DNA of 37,788 bases from a bacterium (GTDB taxonomy: Bacteria > T1Sed10-126). This document shows positions 18,752 to 35,704 of this stretch, piece by piece (the stretch's first letter is position 1; each line of letters begins with the position of its first letter). The stretch spans positions 1-37,788 of the forward strand of contig PWHN01000087.1 in assembly GCA_003554945.1 (NCBI GenBank), given 5' to 3'. The position numbers were made by a program, and so were the translations under genes. The notes beneath the pieces were generated by a model. The model did not search any database. It was not told where the DNA came from and saw nothing but the letters and a program-made list of their open reading frames with translations.

Positions 18752-18799
18752 TGTTTTTAGGTGAAAGTAAAATCAAATTTTCCCCTGGAGGCAGAACAC

Positions 18800-21700
18800 A
18801 TGGAAAATATTGAAGTTTTCCCCCTTCACTCAGACGACAAACCCACCGGCAGCCGTCCTTTGCTCAACCAAGTTGAAAAAATTCTCGAAAATAAATATTC
18901 CGAATACCCGTTCAAACATCTCAATCTGTTGAAAGAATCTGCCTTTAAGCATCTGTCCCGGGAATTTTTGCAGCATTACTCCGCCGGTGATTTTGTCAAT
19001 CTACTCGATTTCATACGTTCTGAAATCACTGCTTACGCGGCCGATCCTTCCGACCGGTTAAAGATAATAAACCCTGATATCGAAGATACACAGTTAACCT
19101 CGTCCTATACAATCCTGAATCTTGTCTGCCCAAACCTGCCCTTCGTAATCGACTCAATACATGGAAATCTCGCCCGCGAAAAAGTTGAAGTACAAACTTT
19201 ATTTTACGAGAGTTTTGATTACACCTATGAAAACGATCAGTTGACTGAGCTGGTTCCATCGGAGGACGAAGATGCGCTTCTGCTCGTTCACGTCCAGCTT
19301 AATCGATTAAACAAAGATGAAATTCGGGAACTTGAGCGTCTGATACAGGAAATACTAACTGACATCAGGCTGGCTGTTTCTGACTTTGAATCGATGATAG
19401 AGAACGCTGAAATTGTCTCTGACAAGCTTTCTTCATACCGAGAAATTTTACCCGATCAAGAAGAACTTCTACTTGAAGCCAAACGTTTAATCAATTATCT
19501 TGTCGATGAAAATTTTGTTTTCCTCGGTTACCGGGAATATGGGCTTGAGTGTGATGAAAACGGTTGCGAACTTCTAAAAACTGTTGGCCAGAGCAACCTT
19601 GGTATTCTGCAAACCGACCGGTTTAAAGACTATCCGGATCAAATACCTGTTACTAAACTGGATTATCGCGTCCAGGAGCGTGTTACCTCGCGCATGATCC
19701 TCACTGTTAAAAAAACAGAAGTGGAAAGCCTGGTTTACCGTCGCGAGCAACTTGACCATGTAACTGTTAAAAACCTTGATTCGGACGGGGAGATAATCGG
19801 AGAATTCCAATTTGTCGGTCTTTTTACAGATCGTGTGCTCAACGAACCGGCGGTCAATATACCGCTGCTTCGCAAGAAATTTCAGGACATGGTTCAGCGT
19901 GAGAAAATAAGCCGACACACAAGTCTCTACAGAGATTTTTACAACATTTTTAACAATATGCCAAAACATGTGCTTTTTTCTTCCTCGATGGATGAGCTCA
20001 GCGACGACATCCATGCCGTGATCGAAGCTTACGGTGAAACTGGGTTTAAGCTGCGCGCTCGTCCCGACGCCTATCGACAGGGATTAACCATCATGATCAT
20101 TATCCCACGGGAGAGATACAGTGAACAGGTTAGCTCTCAAATAGAGTCTGAATTACAGACTGAATTTGAACCCGCCGCTCTCGATTACAGGGTTGCTTTT
20201 GGTGAGTCTGATTTTGTCCAGTTACACTATTATCTGCACACCGACCGGCGGAGTCCAAAAACTTGCAGTTTTGAGGAACTTGAAGAAAAACTGCGCACAC
20301 AAATCCGTTCCTGGAAGGATCGACTCATCGAACTGCTAAAGAATAAGTATGAACCACAGCAGAGAAGCTTACTGATCGAAAAATACGGCAGTGCTTTCCC
20401 TGATGAATACAAAGCTCTTATCTCACCCCATTTCGCTTTAAAAGATATCGTCAACGTCGAAAAATTACTCGACGGAGAGACTCCATCACCACAAATTGAT
20501 CTACTCCCAAACGAAAAGGATGAAAATACAAGCCGCCTGATTTTCTACAGCAACAGACATATTAAACTCAACGAAATAATGCCTCTACTCTCCAATCACG
20601 GCCTTCAAATTATGGAACAATCGACCTTCCAGCTAAAAGTTAACGGCGAGCGCCTCTACCTCTATCTATTCATAATTGAGGAACCCCCCCAATCTCCTGT
20701 TTCTTTCGAACGCCGGCGCCAACTGCTCATCGAAAGTATAGACGGGGTTTACCGCGGCTACTACCGCGATGATATCGTTAACGAACTTGTCGCCCGCCGT
20801 GGGCTTGCTCCCCGGGCCGTCAACCTTTTTCGACTCTATAAAAACTATTTTCACCAGATAAACCCTACCGTTAAACTGGAATCTATTAACCGCACACTTG
20901 TTAAATTCCTACACATATCTGAACTTCTCTTTCGGTATTTTGAAATAAAATTTGATCCCGATGAACCTGATGACCACCGAAAACAGGAACTTAAAGCACA
21001 GGAAAAATCCATCTTGAAACTGCTGGAGAATATAGAAGATCGCAACGATGATTATATTCTTCGCTCACTGCTCAACTTGATCAAATCGACAGTACGCACC
21101 AACTACTACCAGGAAAACTGCAGTAAACCCTATATCAGTATTAAAATTGAAAGTGCTAAAGTACAGGATATGCCCGATCCTCGCCCGCTTTACGAGTTTT
21201 ATGTCTATTCCACTGAAATGGAAGCCATTCATCTTAGGCACGACAAAATTGCCCGGGGGGGGATTCGCTGGAGTGACCGGCGGGACGATTATCGGACCGA
21301 GGTCCTCGATCTCGTAAAAACCCAAAAAGTTAAAAATTCGCTAATAGTCCCGGGCGGCGCCAAGGGCGGTTTTATTATCAAGCAGGAACACATTGAGGAC
21401 GAAAAATCTTTGGCGGAACAGGCTCGTCAAAAATACAAAAATTTTATGCGTGGAATGCTTGATTTGACCGACAATCTTGTCGATGAGGAGCCGGTAGCCC
21501 CGGAAGACGTTGTCTGCTACGATGACCCCGATCCTTACCTTGTTGTCGCCGCTGACAAGGGCACCGCTCAGTTCTCCGACCTTGCTAATTCTGTTTCACA
21601 AGACTACGGGTTCTGGCTTGACGACGCTTTCGCCACCGGTGGTGAAACGGGCTACAACCATAAAGAACAGGGTATCACTGCGAAAGGTACCTGGGTCTGC

Positions 21701-23614
21701 GTCGAACGCCATTTTCAAGAACTCGGGAAAGATATTGAACAGCCTTTCTCTGTTGCGGGAATTGGAGATATGAGTGGTGATGTGTTTGGAAACGGTATGC
21801 TGCTCTCCGACAAAATTAGGCTTCTCGGGTCCTTCAATCACCGGTTCATATTCCTTGACCCCGGTCCCGATCCCGACACCTCGTTTGAGGAACGAAAACG
21901 ACTTTATGCAGAGGAAGCCGACTGGGACAAATACGATAAATCTTTGATTAGCGACGGCGGCGGTGTTTTCAGACGCGACGTCCGCACGATAGATCTACCA
22001 GAGAAAAGCCGCCAGATGCTGAATATAGAAACTGACGAACCAACGCCGGAGGAAGTCATTAAAGCCCTTTTGAAGCTTGACGTAGATCTTCTTTTTAACG
22101 GCGGGATTGGAACTTACATCAAGGCTTCCGGGGAGGCCCATTCGGACGCCGGCGACCCAACTAACGATAACTGCCGGGTTGATGCCGATCAAGTGAATGC
22201 CGACGTTATTGGCGAGGGGGGGAACCTGGGCATAACGCAGAGGGGACGGATCGAACTGGCACGCAATGGCATCCGCCTCAATACTGACGCAATTGACAAC
22301 AGCGGTGGCGTCGATATGTCCGACCACGAGGTGAATATCAAAATTTTACTCCAGGAAAGTATCCGACGAAACGAACTTGACCCCGCACAGAGGGTCGATG
22401 TACTTAAAAGCCTGGATGAACTGCTCGTTGATTTTGTCACTGCCAACAATTACTCCCAGTCGGGGGCGATTAGTCTAGAAACGCACAACTCTGAGCTACG
22501 GCTCGATGACTACAGACACCTCCTGAAACAGCTCGAAAGGGATGTTAAGCTGGATCGTGAGGTAGAAGACCTACCTTACGAAAGTGAAATGCTGGAACGG
22601 CTTCAGGCGGGCCGGGGTATGGTAAGACCTGAAATAGCTGTCATGCTCAGTTATGCAAAAATGGCCCTGCGGCAGCACCTGTCTGCCGAAGATTGGTCTG
22701 AAGACTGGCTCATAAAGCCCTTCCTGCACAGCTATTTCCCGGATAAGCTGGTTGAGGAATTCCCGCAGGGAATGAACAACCACCCGCTAAAAAAAGAAAT
22801 TGCCTTAACTGAGCTGGTGAATCATCTCGTTGACACCTGCGGGCTTACCTTTTTCTTCCGATTGAGCGAGGAAACCGGGGCTGAAATTACTGAATTAACA
22901 CGCTGGTTTCTTGTCAGTGAAAGACTCACCGGCGCTTCTCACCTTTTCTCGACTCTCAGCCAACTGGAAGAAGAGTTAGAAGCTGAAATATTTTATCAAA
23001 CCTGGTGGAAAATACTCGTCCGACTTGATACTGTAGCTGGCTGGCTCCACAACAGTTTCCACCGCCATTATTCGCCGGCCGAATTTGAACAGATGGCCGC
23101 ACCACAGCTTGAAAAACAGCGGCGGAAGATTCATTCTCAGCTCTCCGGTTCACGTCTACAAAGAATCAACGAAAAAAAAGAGCGCTGGAAAAAACTCGGT
23201 GCAGATGAAACTTTTGTTACCACCTTAGCTGATCTCTACTACTTAATTCCTGACCTGGATGTGATTTTTCTGGCCAACCAGGAGGAAAAACCTGTCGATG
23301 AGATCGCTCAATTTTATTTTGAGCTCGGCTCTCTACTTAATATTGACTGGATTCTGGGCCGGTTGATTCACCAGCGTTCTCACGACCACTGGGAGGAAAT
23401 GGCGATTAGCTCACTTACTCGTGAAATCAATTTTATTCATCGAGATATAGCCCGTACATTGCTGGAAAATTCTACCTCCATTGAAGACTTCCACTCAGAA
23501 AATGAAAATCCGATATCCTGCTTGAATTCTATCCAGGAGGATTTGGAAAATACACGTGAATTTAACTTCGCCGGCTATCAATTCTACGTCCAGCGACTGC
23601 GTCAATTAAAGTAG
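18800..23614 (+). CDS. Large NAD-specific glutamate dehydrogenase (GDH-180 type)
   Basis: Catalyses oxidative deamination of L-glutamate to 2-oxoglutarate and ammonia with NAD. 1604 residues, the size of the Streptomyces/Pseudomonas 180-kDa class (Bac_GDH). A long N-terminal regulatory region containing ACT-like segments (residues about 90-130, LVCPNLPFVIDSIHGNLARE) precedes the catalytic core. The core has KIARGGIRWSDRRDDYRTEV and IVPGGAKGGF near residues 815-855, TDNLVDEEPVAPEDVVCYDD, the dinucleotide-binding GIGDMSGDVFGNGMLLSDK near 986, and ADVIGEGGNLGITQRGRIE near 1135. The start is the ATG behind GGAGG (18787-18791); the frame is open upstream to a GTG at 18761. It stands alone and has its own candidate promoter. 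A GDH of this type suggests growth on amino acids. Confidence 0.96.
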   Translation: MENIEVFPLHSDDKPTGSRPLLNQVEKILENKYSEYPFKHLNLLKESAFKHLSREFLQHYSAGDFVNLLDFIRSEITAYAADPSDRLKIINPDIEDTQLTSSYTILNLVCPNLPFVIDSIHGNLAREKVEVQTLFYESFDYTYENDQLTELVPSEDEDALLLVHVQLNRLNKDEIRELERLIQEILTDIRLAVSDFESMIENAEIVSDKLSSYREILPDQEELLLEAKRLINYLVDENFVFLGYREYGLECDENGCELLKTVGQSNLGILQTDRFKDYPDQIPVTKLDYRVQERVTSRMILTVKKTEVESLVYRREQLDHVTVKNLDSDGEIIGEFQFVGLFTDRVLNEPAVNIPLLRKKFQDMVQREKISRHTSLYRDFYNIFNNMPKHVLFSSSMDELSDDIHAVIEAYGETGFKLRARPDAYRQGLTIMIIIPRERYSEQVSSQIESELQTEFEPAALDYRVAFGESDFVQLHYYLHTDRRSPKTCSFEELEEKLRTQIRSWKDRLIELLKNKYEPQQRSLLIEKYGSAFPDEYKALISPHFALKDIVNVEKLLDGETPSPQIDLLPNEKDENTSRLIFYSNRHIKLNEIMPLLSNHGLQIMEQSTFQLKVNGERLYLYLFIIEEPPQSPVSFERRRQLLIESIDGVYRGYYRDDIVNELVARRGLAPRAVNLFRLYKNYFHQINPTVKLESINRTLVKFLHISELLFRYFEIKFDPDEPDDHRKQELKAQEKSILKLLENIEDRNDDYILRSLLNLIKSTVRTNYYQENCSKPYISIKIESAKVQDMPDPRPLYEFYVYSTEMEAIHLRHDKIARGGIRWSDRRDDYRTEVLDLVKTQKVKNSLIVPGGAKGGFIIKQEHIEDEKSLAEQARQKYKNFMRGMLDLTDNLVDEEPVAPEDVVCYDDPDPYLVVAADKGTAQFSDLANSVSQDYGFWLDDAFATGGETGYNHKEQGITAKGTWVCVERHFQELGKDIEQPFSVAGIGDMSGDVFGNGMLLSDKIRLLGSFNHRFIFLDPGPDPDTSFEERKRLYAEEADWDKYDKSLISDGGGVFRRDVRTIDLPEKSRQMLNIETDEPTPEEVIKALLKLDVDLLFNGGIGTYIKASGEAHSDAGDPTNDNCRVDADQVNADVIGEGGNLGITQRGRIELARNGIRLNTDAIDNSGGVDMSDHEVNIKILLQESIRRNELDPAQRVDVLKSLDELLVDFVTANNYSQSGAISLETHNSELRLDDYRHLLKQLERDVKLDREVEDLPYESEMLERLQAGRGMVRPEIAVMLSYAKMALRQHLSAEDWSEDWLIKPFLHSYFPDKLVEEFPQGMNNHPLKKEIALTELVNHLVDTCGLTFFFRLSEETGAEITELTRWFLVSERLTGASHLFSTLSQLEEELEAEIFYQTWWKILVRLDTVAGWLHNSFHRHYSPAEFEQMAAPQLEKQRRKIHSQLSGSRLQRINEKKERWKKLGADETFVTTLADLYYLIPDLDVIFLANQEEKPVDEIAQFYFELGSLLNIDWILGRLIHQRSHDHWEEMAISSLTREINFIHRDIARTLLENSTSIEDFHSENENPISCLNSIQEDLENTREFNFAGYQFYVQRLRQLK

Positions 23615-30746: not shown

Positions 30747-31457
30747 CTGTTTAATAAAACTGCGTTGATCACCGGAGCTTCTCGCGGGCTTGGCGAACAT
30801 ATCAGCCGCGCCCTTACCAATTATGGCTTTAACACGCTCCTCTGTGCACGCGATATGGACCGGCTGAACGAGCTGGCCGATGAATTCAACGAACAGGAGC
30901 CTGGAGACAGTGTCGCCCTGCCAATTGACTTTCACAAACCAAAAACTCTTCGGAAAATATCCGACGCCATACCAAAACAATGGCCTCCCATCTCCGTTCT
31001 TATCAACAACGCCGGCCATTACAAGCCCGCCCCCCTTGAAGATACTGACCTGAAGACTTTTGAAAAACACATGGACGTCAACTGCCGCGGTCCCTTTATT
31101 TTAACCCGCGAGCTGCTTCCCAAGATGGCTGAAATCGGTGGGGGCTTTATAGCTAATATTCTTGCCCCGGGAGCAGTTGAGGGTCAATCCGAGCATTGCG
31201 CGTTTAACGCCTCCAAGTTTGCCCTGCGCGGCTTAACACTCAGTCTCGCCGAGGAGTTCTACGACCGCGGCGTTCACCTGGTTGCCGTAAATATACATGG
31301 TGAAATTGACAGCGAAGAAAAACGAACACAGCAACCGGACCGCGACCCTTCCACCTTTATCGATCCCCGCCATGTCGCCCGGGAGATAATTCATCTCTAC
31401 GAACAACCGCGCGGGGCCTGGACGCGCGAACTTGACCTGCGGCCGTCCCGGCACTAA
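30747..31457 (+). CDS. SDR-family protein lacking catalytic Ser and Tyr
   Basis: Short-chain dehydrogenase/reductase fold. From a CTG at 30747 the product is about 236 residues and begins FNKTALITGASRGLGEHISR, with the cofactor loop GASRGLG and the NNAG motif (LINNAGHYKP). The strand normally holding the catalytic Ser reads NILAPGAVEG, with Ala or Pro there, and the YxxxK motif reads FNASK, with Phe for Tyr; the Lys and the structural Asn (DVNCRG) are kept. It may therefore be a non-catalytic or regulatory SDR. No ATG, GTG or TTG lies in frame upstream of TTG at 30765, which would cut off the first beta strand. Removing one C from the CCCCC run at 30743-30747 would give a TTG start with an SD, so an indel is possible. 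A methyltransferase gene follows 39 bases later. Confidence 0.8.
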   Translation: MFNKTALITGASRGLGEHISRALTNYGFNTLLCARDMDRLNELADEFNEQEPGDSVALPIDFHKPKTLRKISDAIPKQWPPISVLINNAGHYKPAPLEDTDLKTFEKHMDVNCRGPFILTRELLPKMAEIGGGFIANILAPGAVEGQSEHCAFNASKFALRGLTLSLAEEFYDRGVHLVAVNIHGEIDSEEKRTQQPDRDPSTFIDPRHVAREIIHLYEQPRGAWTRELDLRPSRH

Positions 31458-33001: not shown

Positions 33002-33062
33002 GTCATTGCGGGCTTGACCCGCAATCCATGTGAAGTTCGGTATTCGATAACCGGTGATCGGT
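33002..33062. repeat. Single REP-like unit with shared tail
   Basis: GTCATTGCGGGCTTGACCCG with CAATCCATGTGAAG is followed by TTCGGTATTCGATAACCGGTG. The same unit and tail occur at 35010-35076, so the repeated module is longer than the hairpin. Confidence 0.55.
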
Positions 33063-33250
33063 TTTGACTTCACTGAATACTGAATACTGATTACCGATTA
33101 CTGTCTCAACTTCACGCTCTCCAGATCAAGTCCACCCCACTTGCCATAATGACGTGAGTAGAGTCTTTTCTTCTACCCAAACAAAAGATAATAAGCTATA
33201 ATTATCGGTCCTACCAAAAAATCCAAACTAATCAGGAAGTGAATTTTTTT

Positions 33251-34609
33251 ATGAGCAACACCGGTAAAGTTAAATGGTTCGACCCGCGTAAAGGCTACGG
33301 TTTTATCAAACCCGCAGAGGGTGAAGATCTTTTCGTCCACGTTACAAACCTGGAAACAGATACAAAACTTGAACCAGGTACTGAAGTCCAATTCGACGTC
33401 GCCAGCACCAAAAAAGGGCTGGCCGCTCAAAATGTTAAACTTGTTGAAGAACACACAAGTAAAGAGCCTTCTGAGGACGACGGTAACGGGCACCACAAAA
33501 AACAACTATCGTTTGCAGAACTTAACCTTGATAACCAACTTCTAAATAGTCTGGATGAGGCCGGTTTTGGTGAACCGCGGTCCATACAAATAGAGACGAT
33601 TCCGACTATACTGGAAGGCAACGATATCGTCGCTTCTGCCCCTACGGGGACTGGAAAGACCGCCGCCTTCCTGCTCCCCCTGTTTCAGATGCTTGAAACT
33701 AACAGTGACGGTAGCCCGCGCGCTCTTGTGCTCGCCCCCACCCACGAACTTGCCGATCAGATCACAAAAGAGGCCCGTCTGCTAAATCCTGAAGATAAAT
33801 TCAATATCGAAAGCGTTTACGGCGGCACGGATATTTATGATGAAATGGATCGACTTGAGGGTCGTGTCGACCTGCTTGTCGCCTGTCCTGGTCGCTTGCG
33901 GGACCACCTTGGCCGCAATACCGTCTATCTGCGGCGGGTTAAACACTTTGTTCTCGACGAAGCTGATCGTATGTGCGACATGGGTTTTCTCCCTGAAATT
34001 AAAAAAATCATGTATAGTCTTCCGCCGGACCGGCAAAACCTTTTCTTCTCGGCCACCATCCCTGAGCCAATTCAGCGACTGGCTGACGATATCCTCAGCG
34101 AGCCGGTGAAGGTTGGAGTCGGTCGTCAGGCCCCCACCAAGACTATTTCACATTACGTAGTTGAAACCAAAAAAAATCAAAAACAAAAAGTCTTGAAAAA
34201 AATCCTTGGCCAGGACAACGTCGAGTCTGTTCTTGTCTTCTGCCGCACCAGAAACACCGTCCGCAAGCTTACCCGGCGACTTAGAAATGAAGGCTATGAC
34301 GCCTGTGGACTGCAGGGCGGGATGGATCAAATCGCACGCGAAGCCACTATGTCCGCCTTCCGAAGACGTAAATTTAAGATCCTCGTCGCCACCAACGTAG
34401 CTGCACGCGGCCTCGATGTCGAACACATCTCCCACGTTGTTAATTACGATGTTCCCGAAGAGCCCGACGTTTATACCCACCGCATTGGCCGCACCGGACG
34501 TTCCGGTGAAACCGGCGACGCATACACCCTGGTCACGCCACGCAACCGCCGCGACCTCAAAGATATTGAAAGAAAAATAGGCTATAAAATCGAAAGAAAA
34601 AAATTATAG
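33251..34609 (+). CDS. Cold-shock domain/DEAD-box RNA helicase fusion
   Basis: ATP-dependent RNA unwinding with an RNA-chaperone module in one chain. 452 residues from the ATG at 33251, behind AGGAAGTGA (33234-33242); the frame also opens at a GTG at 33239. Residues 1-67 form a complete cold-shock domain: TGKVKWFDPRKGYGFIKP with RNP1 (KGYGFI) and EDLFVHVTNL with RNP2 (LFVHV). An acidic/His linker (about 68-85) leads to a DEAD-box core: Q motif near FGEPRSIQIETIP, motif I APTGTGKTAAF, PTHELA (usually PTRELA), CPGRL (usually TPGRL), VLDEADRMCDMGF, FSAT, LVFCRTR, ARGLDV and HRIGRTGRSGETG. The chain ends 35 residues after motif VI, without the C-terminal RNA-binding extension common in CsdA/DbpA/CshA. 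The CSD may substitute for it. Stands alone. Confidence 0.93.
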   Translation: MSNTGKVKWFDPRKGYGFIKPAEGEDLFVHVTNLETDTKLEPGTEVQFDVASTKKGLAAQNVKLVEEHTSKEPSEDDGNGHHKKQLSFAELNLDNQLLNSLDEAGFGEPRSIQIETIPTILEGNDIVASAPTGTGKTAAFLLPLFQMLETNSDGSPRALVLAPTHELADQITKEARLLNPEDKFNIESVYGGTDIYDEMDRLEGRVDLLVACPGRLRDHLGRNTVYLRRVKHFVLDEADRMCDMGFLPEIKKIMYSLPPDRQNLFFSATIPEPIQRLADDILSEPVKVGVGRQAPTKTISHYVVETKKNQKQKVLKKILGQDNVESVLVFCRTRNTVRKLTRRLRNEGYDACGLQGGMDQIAREATMSAFRRRKFKILVATNVAARGLDVEHISHVVNYDVPEEPDVYTHRIGRTGRSGETGDAYTLVTPRNRRDLKDIERKIGYKIERKKL

Positions 34610-34941: not shown

Positions 34942-35224
34942 TTCACTCGCTATCGGTATATACATCCATACATTCCAACGCTCGCCACAGCAAACTTGAT
35001 CCGACGCTCGTCACAGCGGGCTTGACCCGCAATCCATCCGAAGATCAGTATTCTGTAATCGGTGTTCGGTAATCAGTAAAGGGCGTGAAAACGAATAAGC
35101 CAGTGATAGGGGATAGTTTTGATTTTCGATTACGATTTTTCGCTCCGTTCCAAGCACCCCGCGCCAAGCTCCCTGCTCTCCGCGCTCTTCATCGCTCGCT
35201 CAACAAATTTACGCAAAAAAATAA
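34942..35224. other. Gap between tRNA-Ala and the stress-protein gene
   Basis: No gene in 283 bases. A REP-like unit with tail lies at 35010-35076; the rest is unremarkable, with CGCTC-rich segments near 35180. It is downstream of the stress-protein gene, but I see no clear terminator. Confidence 0.4.
35010..35076. repeat. Single REP-like unit with shared tail
   Basis: GTCACAGCGGGCTTGACCCG with CAATCCATCCGAAG and then ATCAGTATTCTGTAATCGGTG; matches 33002-33062 through both hairpin and tail. Confidence 0.55.
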
Positions 35225-35704
35225 CTAATTAGAAATTATGCGTGAAGTAGCTTCTCCCCTCGAACGAATCGTAAGCACGGGACACTCCGCCTGGCGAACA
35301 ACCCGTTCAGCCACTGAACCTATCCACCAGCGCTGAAAACCACTGCGCCCGTGTGTCCCGGTGGCAATTAAATCGAAGTTATTCTCATGAGCATATTCCA
35401 GTATTTTCTGGGCTGGCTTGCCAATCTTTGCTTCAATTTTATGTTCCGCCGGAATCTCTTTTTCAATATCTTCAAGCCAGTCCACGACTCGCGGATAAAC
35501 AAAATTTTCAAGTAATTTATCGGCCGATATATCCTTCTTGTAAAGCGAACGGAAGGAGCTTACCTCCTCCCCCTTATCCGGCAAGACGTATAAAAAAGTC
35601 AATTTGGCTTCCGTATCAGCCTGCATTTTAAGCGCCACCTTAATTGCAGGCAGGCAATTCTCTGAAAGATCAATCGCAACCAGTATTTTTGAAAAAGTTT
35701 GCAT
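35225..35704 (-). CDS. Universal stress protein (UspA family)
   Basis: 159 residues, one Usp domain. The N-terminal strand ILVAIDLSENCLPAIKVALK and the ATP-binding signature GTHGRSGFQRWWIGSVAERV followed by ECPVLTIR place it in the ATP-binding subgroup. Usp proteins help survival under starvation or oxidative stress; the partner is unknown. AAGGAGG lies seven bases before the ATG. The gene is single and divergent from tRNA-Lys. Confidence 0.93.
   Translation of the reverse strand: MQTFSKILVAIDLSENCLPAIKVALKMQADTEAKLTFLYVLPDKGEEVSSFRSLYKKDISADKLLENFVYPRVVDWLEDIEKEIPAEHKIEAKIGKPAQKILEYAHENNFDLIATGTHGRSGFQRWWIGSVAERVVRQAECPVLTIRSRGEATSRIISN

Follow-up and report, generated by a model that had tools for sequence, protein, structure and literature searches.

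A single gene in the window (the whole 37,788-nt stretch of DNA analyzed here) encodes a cold-shock domain (CSD) joined in frame to a DEAD-box RNA helicase core, and an ortholog of equal layout is found in another genus. The product is quite probably a competent DEAD-box helicase in which an N-terminal CSD, carried on a linker of about 20-30 residues, acts as a substrate holder replacing the basic C-terminal tail. The reading frame starts with ATG at 33251, its stop codon ends at 34609, and the 452 codons are free of frameshifts. A putative ribosome-binding site lies upstream of this ATG, so that the GTG at 33239 is not needed as a start codon. In the promoter scan, no site on the + strand reached the threshold for the fusion gene; a TATAAT read by eye at 33197-33202 is not accompanied by a good -35 element. 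The Rfam search yielded no cspA-type or cold-responsive leader RNA upstream of the gene; its only results were the tRNA-Ala listed further below and a chance match. The features of the gene and its product are as follows.

33234-33239, + strand: likely ribosome-binding site AGGAAG, 11 bases 5′ of the ATG, as read from the sequence
33251-34609, + strand: CSD-DEAD fusion gene, 452 aa; single ORF with Pfam CSD, DEAD and Helicase_C domains; ortholog L001
33260-33442, + strand: cold-shock domain, residues 4-64, with RNP1 KGYGFI and RNP2 LFVHV (Pfam PF00313, 3e-19)
33446-33508, + strand: flexible acidic/polar linker, residues 66-86, with 3 K/R and 6 D/E; pLDDT <50 at residues 68-82
33581-34078, + strand: RecA-like domain 1 (DEAD), residues 111-276 (Pfam PF00270, 1.1e-47, 162 bits)
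33638-33661, + strand: motif I, APTGTGKT (usually AQTGxGKT); P131 in the fused pair and 3/108 others
33737-33754, + strand: motif Ia, PTHELA (usually PTRELA); H165 in the fused pair, R in 108/108 others
33884-33895, + strand: motif Ib, CPGR; C212 is the majority state among close relatives (88/108)
33956-33967, + strand: motif II, DEAD; D236 and E237 invariant in 111/111 rows
34181-34507, + strand: RecA-like domain 2 (Helicase_C), residues 311-419 (Pfam PF00271, 5.9e-32, 111 bits)
34391-34417, + strand: motif V, TNVAARGLD (usually TDxxARGxD); N382 in both fused orthologs and 1/108 others
34478-34501, + strand: motif VI, HRIGRTGR; H410, R411, R414 and R417 in 109/109 rows reaching that far

The CSD scored 69 bits against a Pfam cut-off of 27, and its nearest solved relative is the T. 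maritima Csp (1g6p; phmmer E-value 1.6e-13). AlphaFold2 modeled it as a five-strand barrel with a pLDDT of about 90, followed by a linker disordered at residues 68-82 and a two-RecA-domain core (mean pLDDT of the whole chain 87, pTM 0.63). The folding alignment included one noise row (L081, + strand, a wrong-strand reading), and the model was confident regardless. The modest pTM would fit units that move freely relative to one another. With a five-strand OB barrel carrying both RNP1 and RNP2 in Pfam and the model, the domain belongs to the CspA family. It resembles the CspA/CspB family cold-shock proteins (CSPs) in these motifs, but differs from them in being joined to a helicase and in a loop after RNP2 that is a few residues shorter.

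The helicase core contains Q113, APTGTGKT, PTHELA, CPGR, DEAD, SAT, TNVAARGLD and HRIGRTGR. Motif states were counted over 108 comparison helicases, and the alignment of 111 rows also includes three rows of the fused pair. The catalytic residues K136, D236, E237, H410, R411, R414 and R417 are kept in this alignment, and motifs Q, I, Ia, Ib, II, III, IV, V and VI on two RecA-like domains identify the protein as a DEAD-box RNA helicase of SF2. The chain ends 2 residues past the core, as does that of the ortholog, while the comparison helicases (n=108) extend a median of 53 residues further, with 22% K/R and 7% D/E in the tail; only 3/108 have a tail of ≤5 residues. Thus, the full CSD, the complete core and the absence of a C-terminal RNA-binding extension, all of which the earlier note had read from the sequence, hold up against Pfam, the alignment and the model. 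Work in B. subtilis described the tails of bacterial DEAD-box helicases as basic, with the C-terminal part selecting the substrate (PMC6178137). Because such a tail is missing here, we infer that the CSD took over the tethering of RNA.

The assignment of the core to a known family was examined with the NCBIfam equivalogs, none of whose cut-offs was reached: CshA, 384 of 646 bits (NF053631, only profile positions 1-364 of 434 matched); DbpA, 368 of 524 (NF008744, whose members carry a C-terminal RNA-binding domain, the chain here stopping 2 residues after the core); SrmB, 353 of 507; and RhlE, 332 of 743 (NF007882). The nearest solved structures are CshA, the M. jannaschii DEAD protein, Hera and DbpA, and among the PDB matches listed in the sequence search no chain spans a CSD and a DEAD core. 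CshA-type helicases (PDB 5ivl) gave the best NCBIfam and PDB sequence matches and have an equal core and motif order; the fusion protein departs from them in its N-terminal CSD, in PTHELA, in lacking the C-terminal part of the CshA model, and in its score below the cut-off. By sequence, the nearest relatives are DEAD-box helicases of Chloroflexota, Bipolaricaulota and Poribacteria (43-48% identity), which have CPGR in common with the fusion protein but mostly carry basic C-terminal tails, have PTRELA, and lack a CSD. In maximum-likelihood trees these and related helicases formed a clade within which the fused pair, joined with a support of 100, sat at the end of a long stem.

The earlier note had proposed a distinct subfamily marked by the altered motifs PTHELA and CPGRL, which is borne out in part. 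The long shared stem and PTHELA, the sole motif change in the core that is private to the fused pair (R to H, 0/108 others), argue for it, whereas the position of the core inside the Chloroflexota-type clade and the best score to CshA argue against it. CPGR is ruled out as a subfamily mark since most relatives have it (88/108). In the DEAD-box family, motifs Ia, Ib and V lie along the path of the RNA or mediate coupling between the core domains. As PTHELA and N382 sit in such motifs, the activity of the fused pair may differ from the standard one.

The ortholog (L001) is a protein of 463 aa that is 66% identical and has the same layout. It is encoded on contig PWOD01000128 of the MAG CSSed10_354m from soda-lake sediment (G001), a genome of the same family as the window's lineage and of another genus. 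Its linker is 31 residues long and unlike that of the window copy in sequence. The gene order around the two genes is shared: a short-chain dehydrogenase, an N4/N6 DNA methylase, the fusion gene, a tRNA-Ala (CGC) on the opposite strand, and a universal stress protein. The neighbors in the window are the following.

30765-31457, + strand: short-chain dehydrogenase (Pfam PF00106); order kept in L001
31497-32321, + strand: N4/N6 DNA methylase (Pfam PF01555); order and length kept in L001
34822-34894, - strand: tRNA-Ala (CGC) (Rfam; ARAGORN in the window copy and L001)
35225-35704, - strand: universal stress protein (Pfam PF00582); order kept in L001

These neighbors bear on whether the fusion is an artifact, in which adjacent csp and helicase genes were joined by a frameshift or in assembly. 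The draft genome consists of 121 contigs and csp-helicase adjacency is known in other genomes, both of which would be in keeping with such a join. However, an in-frame fusion with the same neighbors recurs at 66% identity on a contig of another genus, which rules out the artifact, leaving it a practically negligible probability. The single-chain fusion described in the earlier note is thus real: one frame, Pfam domains far over the curated cut-offs, and an ortholog of equal layout.

Several other elements of the window were observed. The methylase gene stands alone, and no restriction gene is seen beside it. An exact 22-base intergenic repeat, GCGGGCTTGACCCGCAATCCAT, flanks the helicase gene on both sides at 33008-33029 and 35016-35037, and after each copy comes a degenerate stretch resembling GTATTC/GGTAATCGGT. 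No such repeat is expected by chance, and GCGGGCTTGACCCGCAATCCAT may belong to a repeat family scattered through the intergenic regions of the genome. A complete large NAD-glutamate dehydrogenase of 1617 aa with ACT and helical domains is encoded at 18761-23614.

We searched both genomes for further DEAD-box helicases. The PF00270 search of the fusion's genome (G000) returned eight places including the fusion itself; by NCBIfam, the others are Mfd, RecQ, RecG, PriA, SecA, UvrB and one unnamed below the cut-off. In the genome of the ortholog, the fusion is the only strong PF00270 match, two others that were checked are RecQ, and for the rest the protein search showed no similarity to the query helicase. 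All the other hits that were checked and named are thus DNA helicases, SecA or UvrB. Neither genome yielded a DEAD-box RNA helicase besides the fusion, at completeness values of 93.5% (G000) and 91% (G001) that allow for a second copy in a gap.

The architecture was surveyed in about 940 genomes (G000-G938) using the N-terminal 170 residues as the query and requiring the CSD before the DEAD domain, with the strongest matches listed; one family was surveyed with the equivalent part of L138. Among the matches listed, fused chains occur in three genomes only (G000, G001 and G589). The third, L138 of G589, is a protein of 524 aa with a CSD at residues 3-68 and an RhlE-like core, the one fused chain among 61 sampled in its family. 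L138 also has an N-terminal CSD, a linker and a DEAD core in one chain; in contrast to the window fusion, its core is RhlE-like with standard PTREL and TPGR, and it retains a basic C-terminal tail. Constraining the three fused helicases together, rows chosen after the fusions were seen and before the tree, cost 84 log-likelihood units, and a common origin was rejected by the AU test (p-AU 0.0004). Hence, the CSD-DEAD fusion arose at least two times and is rare but recurrent. L138 likewise disposes of the suggestion that the architecture is novel in the sense of unique. 'Little described', the other half of that suggestion, agrees with our search of open-access papers, which turned up none on a CSD-DEAD fusion. 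Some further, unreported members are expected in UniProt/InterPro.

Free csp genes adjoin DEAD-box genes in G011 (L092), G146 (L096) and G458, and a looser case occurs on a Priestia plasmid; this adjacency shows how fusions could start. At L096:752-2946, a csp gene, a second CSD joined to a preceding hydrophobic, membrane-like stretch, and a DEAD-box gene lie in a row, and a similar csp-DEAD adjacency is seen in G458, which is of the same family as the genome of L096. Separately, the N-terminus of chain H of PDB 9arw, a CRISPR Cmr6 named as CSD-containing, matches the fused CSD and is another CSD fused to an RNA-acting protein.

Does the CSD contribute to the work of the helicase? It might instead be a passenger that folds but adds nothing essential, the helicase working through its core alone. 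Loss of a stop codon and spacer between side-by-side csp and helicase genes, as found in several bacteria, could produce such a protein. The identities of the fused CSD also point this way: it matches the CSD of its ortholog at 33/63 and the free CSPs of its genome at 31/60 (about 52% each), so the fused CSD has diverged faster than the helicase core; the near-equal identities speak neither for nor against its origin from its own genome's CSPs. The genome encodes two free-standing CSPs, with which the fused CSD could be redundant, and these, together with an acidic linker lacking sequence conservation, speak against a tethered arm. On the other hand, RNP1, RNP2, the surface aromatics and the core are kept across both genera while the linker diverged freely in length and sequence, and the fact that these proteins also lack the basic tail suggests that the CSD has replaced it. 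We therefore consider a passive CSD unlikely.

The change could also lie in the core, with PTHELA and the TN of motif V weakening RNA bending or domain coupling and the CSD supplying most of the RNA binding, so that the protein would clamp or remodel RNA rather than unwind it. H165 is private to the fused pair, N382 nearly so, and a long stem sets the pair apart in the trees. Nevertheless, the Walker A, DEAD, SAT and HRxGRxGR motifs are intact, and since no second DEAD-box RNA helicase was found, the cell would have no unwinding enzyme of this kind if this protein did not unwind RNA. Loss of unwinding is thus improbable.

The reading we prefer remains that of an active helicase whose tethered CSD holds the substrate. 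The CSD would bind single-stranded RNA beside structured stretches and enrich RNA in the vicinity of the core, which would open nearby helices locally in an ATP-driven manner. The opened strand would then be trapped by the CSD and prevented from re-closing, so that opening and holding would take place in one chain. As the sole DEAD-box helicase, the protein may serve general RNA work, including ribosome assembly, mRNA decay and the translation of structured mRNA, and the need for it would be greatest in the cold, a role suggested by analogy with CSP and DEAD-box relatives.

CSPs and DEAD-box helicases encoded as separate proteins are documented to act as partners, as invoked in the earlier note: CshA and CshB are reported to interact with CSPs in B. 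subtilis, and AtRH7 with AtCSP3 in Arabidopsis (PMC4846089, PMC6178137). CshB-CspB and AtRH7-AtCSP3 resemble the fusion in pairing a CSP with a DEAD-box helicase, but each consists of two polypeptides instead of one chain. The repeated csp-helicase adjacency and the second independent fusion likewise indicate a functional link. The fusion is a natural covalent form of a partnership that, in the papers found, occurs only between separate proteins, and a sole helicase of 452 aa with a CSD offers a compact system for asking whether a CSD can replace an RNA-tethering basic tail. It is possible, if rather doubtful, that the exchange is lineage-wide, such that the single generalist helicase of the family has a CSD in place of the basic tail and a private motif Ia that fits the CSD-held strand. 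If so, one enzyme would combine what a CSP and a helicase each contribute to the handling of RNA in the cold.
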